NCBI GenBank assembly: GCA_001874305.1
Contig: MPCU01000009.1
Span: 1 to 64,000 of the forward strand
Length of the DNA: 64,000 nucleotides
Direction of reading: 5' to 3'
DNA from: Bacteriovorax sp. MedPE-SWde
GTDB taxonomy: Bacteria > Bdellovibrionota > Bacteriovoracia > Bacteriovoracales > Bacteriovoracaceae
In this document: one piece after another, positions 57,320 through 61,166 of the stretch
How positions within the stretch are numbered: the stretch's first letter is position 1
Layout of the letters: each line of letters begins with the position of its first letter
Translations under genes and position numbers: made by a program
Notes under the pieces: model-generated
What the model saw: only the letters and a program-made list of their open reading frames with translations
What the model was told of the DNA's origin: nothing
The model's database searches: none

Positions 57320-57664
57320 TTATCTTCTATCCATAGCTCTTCCAACTTCAGAGAAGTTTCTGTTAACACAACTTTCGTAACTGAAGCTAACTCCGTCACC
57401 ATAGTTATAACAACTCTGAACATAAATTCCATATTCTCTTGAAAGATTAGAGAAGTTTCTATTCACACAGCTTTGGTAGCTTGAGCTGAGTTCGTCACCG
57501 TAGTTATAGCAAGAAGAGATAACTCCTGCTGTACTAAAGTTTCTACTGATGCAACTTGTGAATGAAAAAGAAACATCGTCGCCATAATTATAACAAGAAC
57601 TCATATAAACAGCGGATACATTTGTTGCAGCAAGTAATACTAGTGTAAGTAGGATTTTCTTCAT
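57320..57664 (-). CDS. Exported mini-protein with three cysteine-paired SCYNYGD repeats
   Basis: A 114-residue protein with signal peptide MKKILLTLVLLAATNVSA. The mature ~95 residues are three near-identical units of about 30 residues: SCYNYGD-x-(V/L)-S-x-S-(F/Y)-x-S-C-(I/V)-x-R-N-F-S, starting near residues 23, 51 and 84. Each has two Cys 13 residues apart, so three disulfide modules are likely. The units are separated by short linkers (the last contains SREYGIYVQ). I know no family for it. It ends with GRAMDRR. It stands alone, with the groESL terminator behind it. Confidence 0.75.
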   Translation of the reverse strand: MKKILLTLVLLAATNVSAVYMSSCYNYGDDVSFSFTSCISRNFSTAGVISSCYNYGDELSSSYQSCVNRNFSNLSREYGIYVQSCYNYGDGVSFSYESCVNRNFSEVGRAMDRR

Positions 57665-59410: not shown

Positions 59411-59580
59411 TGCTGTACTCCAAGATAGATTTGTAACAAATTCTTACTATATATTCTCAAGGAAAACGGTTATTTGTTAGCTCGTAAAAATGACCCAATA
59501 AATATTCTATGGAGTCAAAATGTTGAAGGGGCGAGGGATTTTTGACACTGCTATTATTGAGGCCAACTCACTAGAAAGTC

Positions 59581-59606
59581 GTAGGACCGGCTTATTTGGT
59601 AGGACC
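59581..59606 (+). repeat. Tandem GTAGGACC repeats upstream of the sigma-54 promoter
   Basis: GTAGGACC occurs at 59581-59588 and 59599-59606, 18 bases start to start. They lie about 85-110 bases before the predicted start of the RNA at ~59693, the usual place for sigma-54 activator sites. A TTTTGACACYG repeat at 59540-59550 and 59620-59630 flanks them. Confidence 0.45.
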
Positions 59607-59666
59607 ACTTTGCCTGCCTTTTGACACCGTATTTTCTAACCCCGTGTTTTTCTAAGAGGACAAAGT

Positions 59667-59682
59667 TGGCACGCTTCCTGCT
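59667..59682 (+). promoter_or_regulatory. Sigma-54 promoter of the CsrB-like RNA
   Basis: TGGCACG-CTTC-CTGCT. The GG and GC lie exactly 12 bases apart, and it differs from the TGGCACG-N4-TTGCW consensus at one base. The expected start is about 59693. No gene starts within 600 bases downstream on this strand, which points to a noncoding RNA. Confidence 0.65.
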
Positions 59683-59692
59683 ATATAGAATG

Positions 59693-59948
59693 TAACACAA
59701 GGGACAGGAAGTCCCTGAGAAGTTAGGATGATTTCTCAAAGAATTAAACTCTGTTTAATCGGTCAGGATGACCAAAATAGTCAGGAAGACTAAAAGGAGC
59801 TTAGAGGATGAAGCACCTTAGCCATGTAGGAAGCACAGCTAGTACTCGTTCACGTTGTTCACAGTTCATGTTCAAAACCAAAGCAGTCTCTTGTAAATTT
59901 CAAGGACGTTCTTCTGAGGCCAGTAACCCTCTAAGCTTATTTTTTTTA
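59693..59948 (+). ncRNA. CsrB/RsmZ-like CsrA-sequestering RNA (candidate)
   Basis: Behind a sigma-54 promoter lies a chain of short hairpins with GGA loops: GGGAC-AGGAA-GTCCC (59701-59715), TGAGAA...AGGATG...TTCTCA (59716-59738), GGTC-AGGAT-GACC (59761-59773), AGTC-AGGAA-GACT (59779-59791). Three more AGGA sites follow. The 3' part is closed by AGCTTAGAGG/CCTCTAAGCT (59798-59807/59928-59937), then eight T, a terminator-like end. CAGGA(U/A)G in hairpin loops is the repeated motif of CsrB-type RNAs that titrate CsrA. No csrA gene is in the window. Not confirmed by expression. Confidence 0.6.
59848..59874 (+). repeat. Four closely spaced GTTCA units inside the RNA
   Basis: GTTCA at 59848, 59857, 59864 and 59870 in the large loop of the closing stem. 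The stretch is poor in self-pairing and could be a single-stranded target or protein site. Confidence 0.4.
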
Positions 59949-59959
59949 AATTCAAGGTA

Positions 59960-60137
59960 CAAATTTTAAGGCCACGGATGGCCGACAGCATACAAGGATG
60001 TATTAAAAGATACCCTGGGTTAGAAACATCCCTCTCTCCCTATATGAATCTTCCCGTGGGTAATCTAAATTGACCGAGGACTCTTTAAATCATGTGGAAT
60101 GTATTTAAGAAAGGAGCGTCCTCGGTCTCTTTTGTTT
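59960..60137 (+). ncRNA. Second GGA-hairpin RNA segment with terminator (candidate)
   Basis: GGCC-ACGGAT-GGCC (59970-59983) and ATACA-AGGA-TGTAT (59990-60003) are hairpins. The latter reproduces the published CsrA SELEX consensus RUACARGGAUGU. A TACCC/GGGTA domain (60011-60062) with C/T-rich loop follows. Then GACCGAGGAC/GTCCTCGGTC (60072-60081/60118-60127), a perfect 10-base stem over an inner hairpin, leads into TCTTTTGTTT. It may be a separate RNA or the 3' part of the RNA starting at 59693. No separate promoter is clear. Confidence 0.45.
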
Positions 60138-60233
60138 GCGTCATTTAGCAGGATGCTAAATGACGCTAGTCAACCCTGATAAACGACCAGGATGGGAGTG
60201 CAAGAGGGTCTTCCCTAAAAGCGGAAAACTTTT
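60138..60233 (+). ncRNA. Third set of GGA hairpins
   Basis: GCGTCATTTAGC-AGGAT-GCTAAATGACGC (60138-60166) is a perfect 12-base stem with an AGGAT loop. GACC/GGTC (60185-60188/60207-60210) encloses CC-AGGAT-GG. AAAAG-CGGAAAA-CTTTT (60217-60233) shows a GGA loop again. They lie between the terminator at 60127 and the promoter at 60264, so their transcript is unknown. Confidence 0.35.
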
Positions 60234-60298: not shown

Positions 60299-60745
60299 AT
60301 GAAAAGTGAAGTCTACGTTCTCTATTTACAATTTGAAAAGAAACTTGATGAAAAGTTTCTCTATCTATCTCGTGTATTTAATCAATTTGGAATTGCTCTT
60401 GTACCTATTACAATAGAAGAGTTTAAGACCTTAAAGATAAGTAAGCACGAGTATGTTCTTGCATCCGTTAGGGACATAAACTCTATTAAAATTTATAGAA
60501 AGTTATTAAAGAGATATTTAAATTACTTTTTGAGAACAGGAAAAGTTACTCTATTCGAGTACTCATCTTTTGAGACAATACATGACAGTCGTTTTTTAAA
60601 AGACAAGAAGGTATTTCAAGAGAGATTACCTGTGTCGATGTTTCAAATGACTGAGTTAATTGGGAGAACTCTTTTTGAAGATATCACAACAAAGAATAAA
60701 ACTTGGCCTGGTGGTAGAAGATCACGCTTGCCAAACATGAAGTAA
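60299..60745 (+). CDS. Hypothetical protein after the GGA-hairpin RNA region
   Basis: A 148-residue soluble basic protein with no signal peptide. It begins MKSEVYVLYLQFEKKLDEKF and has a helical middle (SIKIYRKLLKRYLNYFLRTG) and a basic tail (KTWPGGRRSRLPNMK). The opening strand and the alternation look like an alpha/beta fold of about 110 residues, but I recognise no family. A sigma-28-like promoter sits just upstream and no ribosome site is present. It is followed by a coupled gene after 16 bases. Confidence 0.6.
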   Translation: MKSEVYVLYLQFEKKLDEKFLYLSRVFNQFGIALVPITIEEFKTLKISKHEYVLASVRDINSIKIYRKLLKRYLNYFLRTGKVTLFEYSSFETIHDSRFLKDKKVFQERLPVSMFQMTELIGRTLFEDITTKNKTWPGGRRSRLPNMK

Positions 60746-60761
60746 TAATTGGAGAGAGGGA

Positions 60762-61166
60762 ATGTCAAAACTACCAGTGGAGTCTTTAAGACTTCTCGTA
60801 ATTTTAAAAAATGATTCGAGAAGACTGCATGACAGAATTAAATATAGAGAAGTTGAATATCTTAGAGTTCTTTCTTTAAAGAGAACAAGAGATCACTTTA
60901 AAGATATTTTTAAATCGCTATATTTTACTATTACAATTGATGACTTATTATTATGTTCTGAAGATGTTATAAGTGCTTTAGATAGTTTTTATACGAAAGT
61001 AGAATCGATGAGATGGTATCTTAATCATACTGAAGATATGCCTGCTACTTTAGAAGATAATGTTGCTCAGTTTGTAAAAGATATTTCAACTCTATATGAT
61101 ACGCTTACTATATATTTAAATGCTGAGATAGGTGTCGTTGAGAGCGACGAAGAAACAACATCATGA
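60762..61166 (+). CDS. Hypothetical helical protein
   Basis: A 134-residue, mainly helical, charged cytoplasmic protein: LRLLVILKNDSRRLHDRIKY, FKDIFKSLYFTITIDDLLLC, VISALDSFYTKVESMRWYLN and a C-terminal acidic tail (ESDEETTS). I see no catalytic motif or known family. Ribosome site TTGGAGAGAGG is strong. It overlaps the methyltransferase-like gene by 4 bases (ATGA), so the three genes 60299-61837 probably form one unit. Confidence 0.6.
   Translation: MSKLPVESLRLLVILKNDSRRLHDRIKYREVEYLRVLSLKRTRDHFKDIFKSLYFTITIDDLLLCSEDVISALDSFYTKVESMRWYLNHTEDMPATLEDNVAQFVKDISTLYDTLTIYLNAEIGVVESDEETTS

Follow-up and report, generated by a model that had tools for sequence, protein, structure and literature searches.

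Our analysis points to a stand-alone RNA, encoded on the plus strand of the 64,000-nt stretch of DNA examined here (the window), from the marine predator Bacteriovorax, that would be controlled by sigma54 and bind CsrA. On balance we favor the view that this RNA, cognate with a family of mRNA leaders, titrates CsrA and probably also acts by base-pairing. The anatomy, conservation and covariation of the locus, and the presence of csrA, fliW and rpoN in the genome, lead us to infer its transcription, CsrA binding, titration and base-pairing. In the proposed mechanism, an active enhancer-binding protein would drive transcription of the RNA from its sigma54 promoter. Four GGA-loop hairpins in the 5' part and two near the 3' end would then bind CsrA dimers and reduce the amount of free CsrA, so that an RNA would restrain CsrA in addition to FliW, whose gene adjoins csrA. 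A hairpin with a CU-rich loop would pair with Shine-Dalgarno/AUG sequences, the best of them belonging to the gene at 60762. The parts of the locus described below lie on the plus strand.

A conserved array of GGA-loop hairpins

The 5' part of the locus carries four GGA-loop hairpins on unrelated stems within a span of 91 nt (59701-59791). These hairpins, read directly from the DNA, are GGGAC-AGGAA-GTCCC (59701-59715), GAGAAGT-TAGGATG-ATTTCTC (59717-59737), GGTC-AGGAT-GACC (59761-59773) and AGTC-AGGAA-GACT (59779-59791), and each is a predicted CsrA site. The initial annotation had described four adjacent hairpins with AGGAA or AGGAU loops on unrelated stems within 100 bases, and they were located where it placed them; only the word “adjacent” is slightly loose, since a hairpin without GGA (59743-59759) intervenes between the second and the third. 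Dinucleotide shuffles of the sequence gave a mean of 0.33 GGA-in-loop hairpins, and none of the 500 shuffles reached the observed four. The four orthologues, with 3, 2, 2 and 2 such hairpins, are enriched as well, these numbers being reached by 3–14 of 500 shuffles. Taken over its full length, the 321-nt stretch exceeds its shuffles only slightly in stability (z -1.4); thus, the signal resides in the GGA-in-loop pattern and its conservation. The shuffles, together with the covariation described next, rule out chance hairpins.

DNA and covariance searches found the locus in five of the six genomes of the genus. In the sixth (G004), a genome of 78% completeness, just a part of gene A, which lies downstream of the RNA in the window, was recovered. 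Comparison of the five species revealed that loops of the forms UAGGA(U/C)G and A(C/U)GGA(A/U) persist on differing stems. In two orthologous GGA hairpins that were aligned across these species, the loops are 86% identical and the stems 61%. Both sides have changed in 7 of 13 pairs, and 87.7% of the cells pair compared with 72.2% in shuffles, although these pair counts lean somewhat towards structure because the hairpins were aligned by hand around the GGA. The covariation score of the two hairpins was 0.49 against 0.21 in shuffled alignments, none of 500 shuffles reached it, and slid controls scored at most 0.14. One 5' loop of G002 is without GGA (GGCC-AGG-GGGCC), indicating that single sites turn over. 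These results agree with the earlier proposal that the loop is the conserved part and the stems vary, since the five species keep the GGA loops while the stems covary; conserved stems without GGA loops had been named as the pattern that would speak against it, and the related genomes show the opposite. Relatives outside the genus were located by synteny with gene A. Weak matches of a covariance model of the 3' part outside the genus were mostly due to chance on inspection.

Promoter, 3' module and reading frame

A canonical sigma54 (-24/-12) promoter, TTGGCACGCTTCCTGCT, with the GG-N10-GC arrangement, is located at 59666-59682, and transcription is expected to start near 59693. The promoter is present in all five orthologues, and the genome contains one rpoN. 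Pattern searches counted 24 sigma54-type sites genome-wide and 0 with the reversed control pattern. Upstream of the promoter, the region 59509-59627 contains blocks that are invariant among three orthologues and is probably where an enhancer-binding protein acts. It includes TAGGACC (59582-59588 and 59600-59606), TTTTGACAC (59540-59548 and 59619-59627) and GGAGTCAAAA (about 59510-59520). The blocks recur in G005, TAGGACC also in G002, and the TAGGACC and TTTTGACAC repeats are probable activator sites. The former occur as TAGGACC/GGTCCTA, and GGTCCTA is also found 5' of another sigma54 promoter in G001 (L013, about 1290-1310), which suggests one common activator.

The array is followed by a branched domain (59792-59943), which is closed by a long-range helix between 59792-59807 and 59928-59943 and precedes a U-run. 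The helix is kept with altered letters in five of five orthologues, and each of them beats nearly all shuffles. A first 3' end may lie near 59947, at this U-run, which would give a second, shorter RNA of about 255 nt. Further downstream, an intrinsic terminator (GACCGAGGAC/GTCCTCGGTC plus TCTTTTGTTT, 60072-60137) has undergone compensatory changes but is present in every orthologue, and the RNA is probably about 450 nt long, ending near 60137. The 3' boundary first assigned, 59948, has a counterpart in the U-run behind the long-range helix, but conserved sequence and the intrinsic terminator reach to about 60137, and the RNA extends about 190 nt past that boundary. An end at 60200, which would include CAGGATG hairpins at 60138-60200, was rejected, since these hairpins belong to a dispersed repeat whose loops need not be GGA. 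In this repeat, a perfect palindrome of 13 bp (GCGTCATTTAGCAGGATGCTAAATGACGC) precedes a second CAGGATGGG motif, and the repeat is found directly behind terminators, elsewhere in this genome and in related ones too. Copies occur at G000:C9:244012 and C2:38902 and also in G016 and G012, and the repeat looks like a REP-type element.

The 3' module contains two more GGA hairpins. The first, GGCC-ACGGAU-GGCC (59970-59983), has an invariant GGA loop on a stem that is replaced by GUGUCC/GGACAC in two relatives. The second, AUAC-AAGGAU-GUAU (59990-60003), is a predicted CsrA site, and AUACAAGGAUGU at 59990-60001 exactly matches the CsrA SELEX consensus RUACARGGAUGU (PMC7652899). Behind them, a hairpin at 60009-60065 presents the CU-rich loop ACAUCCCUCUCUCCCU (60026-60041). 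These 16 nt are identical in all five orthologues, while the hairpin stems differ almost completely. The candidate base-pairing target is the Shine-Dalgarno sequence and start codon (GGAGAGAGGGAATG, 60751-60764) of gene B (60762-61166), the second downstream gene, which encodes a 134-aa protein with no Pfam match. Pairing of the loop with this start was calculated at -24.3 kcal/mol, the best value among 78 start regions sampled in the genome, and the same target ranked first of 15 in G003 and G001 and third of 15 in G002. All six members of the genus have the complementarity (in G004 as GGAGAGAGGGATG), which is weakest in G002, and most other genera are without it. Start regions of the GGAGAGAG type number about 30 in the genome against 19 in the control, so that further targets of the loop are possible. 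The RNA probably has this second, base-pairing function.

A 53-codon ORF (59808-59969), whose start lies in ...GGAGCTTAGAGGATG, begins right behind the array and may be either a small protein gene or the relic of a leader. It raises the alternative that the transcript is an mRNA, in which a sigma54 leader with GGA hairpins would let CsrA repress the 53-aa protein (59808), the 3' part would be untranslated, and titration would be a side effect at most, as in the flaA mRNA of C. jejuni. Many family leaders have gene starts (GGAGCTTTAGGATGAAGC) nearly identical to the junction ...GGAGCTTAGAGGATGAAGC, and between G001 and G005 the ORF differs mainly by synonymous changes (20 of 37 differences at third positions; pN 0.18, pS 0.51), as this alternative would have it. 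However, the ORF of the window species compared with that of G003 shows no third-position bias (pN 0.43, pS 0.60), and G002 is without a homologous ORF while its promoter, array, CU loop and terminator remain. The RNAs of two other genera contain no long ORF, and conservation is higher in the 3' domain than in the ORF. We therefore regard the mRNA as an unlikely alternative that still deserves weight, and retain the stand-alone RNA as the preferred explanation. A small protein is likely made from the ORF in some species; its production in the window species is uncertain.

Family-wide sigma54-GGA leaders and the probable origin of the proposed free RNA

We defined a leader class as a sigma54 promoter followed, within at most 50 nt, by at least two serial GGA-loop hairpins, and the window locus falls within this definition. 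A search for a sigma54 promoter with two spaced AGGA motifs matched 90 of 124 family genomes, whereas the reversed pattern gave five matches in total. Fifty family leaders contain 86 GGA-loop hairpins, compared with 22.9 ± 4.8 (maximum 36) in a control that fixed the GGA positions and shuffled the flanks. Most family leaders precede protein genes, including DksA-like genes (Pfam DksA_N), genes of secreted proteins and others, and the start codon is often inside the AGGAUG loop. Many leaders with 2–4 GGA-loop hairpins were seen ahead of genes for DksA-like proteins, secreted proteins, proteases and others (L065-L094, L123-L142). We regard the family-wide leaders as a candidate CsrA regulon, in which the GGA sites of the mRNA leaders presumably serve cis control. 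GGA richness as a property of all sigma54 leaders in the window genome was rejected: its 24 sigma54 leaders have 8 GGA loops compared with 3.0 ± 1.9 in shuffles (maximum 9), and the window RNA supplies half of the 8.

A second sigma54-driven small RNA, conserved and about 100 nt long, was observed on the minus strand at G000:C8:87153-87277 (L096; also L095, L097-L112). It follows the pattern GUGUGUGU-WGGAG ... GAAAAAAGGAUUUUUUC ... CUCCGUCAAAAUGUCUCUC plus a terminator. Of 38 relatives, 19 contain matches to it, and no Rfam family was hit at threshold.

Gene A (60299-60745), present in 107 of the 124 family genomes, encodes a 148-aa protein that ends in WPGGRRxxLP and has no Pfam match. Scanning genome contigs for gene A returned three loci only (Bacteriovorax sp. 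DB6_IX, UBA1852 and Halobacteriovorax ARS37) and no new RNA. In many of the examined genera, a sigma54-GGA leader lies 5' of gene A and is followed by genes for a secreted protein, X, and a protein, Y, which is matrixin-like where tested (Peptidase_M10, G063). The order leader-X-Y-gene A was seen in L215 (1616-2858) and in L206-L208, L210-L213 and L216, X being a secreted CxxxF protein. The products of X, Y and gene A are possibly predatory enzymes. Elsewhere in the window, on the minus strand at 57320-57664, a small secreted protein is encoded that consists of a repeated SCYNYGD..SFSYxSCVNRNF unit, and G002 has a relative in the corresponding position.

Across the family, the element is found ahead of gene A, which it abuts directly in G060 and G019, as would be expected if the RNA were a long leader of the gene A operon (60299 onward), with transcription continuing into the operon through anti-termination or escape from the terminator and CsrA controlling gene A. 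In the window, however, a strong intrinsic terminator and the dispersed repeat lie in between, and in G007, G076, G075, G077, G015 and others gene A is about 1.7–2 kb away, behind a terminator. We consider such a leader improbable, and the free RNA the better explanation.

Three groups, namely the window genus, G007/G074-G077 and G015/G039, are missing X and Y at this place, and the element closes there with a CU-rich segment plus an intrinsic terminator. In G007/G074-G077 and G015/G039 it stands alone without a long ORF; in the window, the 53-codon ORF is the only candidate for a protein gene on the transcript, X and Y being absent. Searches of genomes from the free-RNA groups turned up no close homologue of Y (best 36 bits, compared with 241 bits in G010). 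We infer a conversion of leaders into free RNAs, the reverse order being possible; the free RNA most likely arose by loss of the genes downstream of a GGA leader. In L215/L216 (G063, G065) and L206/L207 (G012, G069), gene X has CU-rich sequence (such as TTCATCTCTCTCTCC) where it encodes the signal peptide. This sequence resembles the CU loop found in free RNAs and may be its origin.

The absence of X and Y, which follow the leader in other genera, would also fit a decaying leader without function, of which the GGA hairpins are leftovers. This explanation is highly improbable. Compensatory stem changes with constant GGA loops, the invariant 16-nt CU loop and the kept promoter in five species require selection and largely refute it. 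Our fuller interpretation, which is tentative, is that a leader detached from its operon became a free dual-function RNA that titrates CsrA beside FliW and, with its CU loop, covers ribosome-binding sites and thereby represses mRNAs, and that leader and free forms coexist in living genera. The RNA may also, as the initial annotation speculated, have a part in switching between free-swimming and intraprey phases. Equally tentatively, the same interpretation places this CsrA titration in parallel to, and independent of, the Gac-CsrB/RsmYZ systems.

If the free RNA is confirmed, Bdellovibrionota would have a CsrA RNA antagonist under sigma54 control in the same genome as csrA-fliW, which would suggest repeated origins of RNA-based CsrA control, and a testable post-transcriptional switch would be available for predatory bacteria. 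The sigma54-GGA leaders of DksA-like genes, secreted proteins and a matrixin operon point to a large CsrA regulon, of which we found no description. With the series of leaders and free RNAs, one could also trace directly how an mRNA leader gives rise to a regulatory RNA.

The Csr system and comparison with known RNAs

The window genome contains csrA in a flagellar gene order, flgK-flgL-csrA-fliW, in which flgK and flgL were named from sequence and the identities of CsrA and FliW were confirmed by Pfam. A genome without csrA had been named in advance as an argument against a CsrA-binding RNA; csrA is present, adjoining fliW, and was found in 32 of 38 relatives. The Rfam CsrB model (RF00018) aligned end to end with 59682-59947 at 31.3 bits (E 5.5e-7 for 501 bases searched, 9.8e-7 for 901 bases), which is below the gathering threshold of 71 bits and thus short of RF00018 membership. 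The orthologues gave no match to the CsrB model at E<=1, and no Rfam family was found at curated thresholds in the window or in 14 related loci. Assignment to a known Rfam family was rejected, as only CsrB matched, below threshold. The locus shares with RF00018 an excess of GGA-loop hairpins, an intrinsic terminator and a genomic csrA.

The initial annotation had called the locus a CsrB-like RNA. Its GGA loops, the covariation, the fit to the CsrB model and the presence of csrA support a CsrB-like, CsrA-binding RNA, while the score stays below the Rfam family threshold. The description is also incomplete, as it leaves out the sigma54-type promoter, the CU-rich loop module and the ORF that is constrained in two relatives, and in most of the family the same element is an mRNA leader and not a free RNA. 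We consider that the RNA most likely works like CsrB by analogy, although with four to six CsrA sites per molecule it might titrate effectively only at high abundance.

Csr RNAs that antagonize CsrA are described as widespread in Gammaproteobacteria, and FliW as the antagonist in some other bacteria (PMC7652899). For Bdellovibrio and Bdellovibrionota we found no CsrA-control RNA in the literature, and nothing relevant on Halobacteriovorax small RNAs, in a search of limited coverage that is not proof of absence. Like CsrB, CsrC and RsmB (RF00018, clan CL00106), the RNA has serial hairpins with AGGA(U/A) loops, an intergenic position, an intrinsic terminator and a genomic CsrA. It differs from them in having fewer GGA loops, an additional CU-loop hairpin, an ORF and a score below the curated threshold, and its host lies outside Gammaproteobacteria and has FliW. 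CsrB and RsmB are characterized by GacA/UvrY-type activation, whereas a sigma54-type promoter is found here.

McaS and GadY of E. coli are base-pairing sRNAs that also antagonize CsrA (PMC7652899). The RNA resembles them in its GGA motifs and likely base-pairing region, and its conserved unpaired loop is complementary to a predicted target start site. In contrast, it is much longer, has more GGA hairpins and a sigma54 promoter, and no sequence relation to them was shown. The pgaA leader contains six CsrA sites (PMC7652899), and Campylobacter jejuni has no Csr RNAs but uses flaA mRNA plus FliW instead (PMC4894983). An untranslated leader with many GGA hairpins, and a CsrA-titrating mRNA leader beside FliW, are the features that these systems have in common with the element described here; unlike them, in three genera it has its own terminator and no long reading frame after it on the transcript. 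CrcZ of Pseudomonas is RpoN-dependent, and the two would be alike as regulator-titrating RNAs under sigma54. CrcZ titrates Hfq (PMC4063720), which it binds via CA motifs, whereas the RNA described here is predicted to bind CsrA via GGA.
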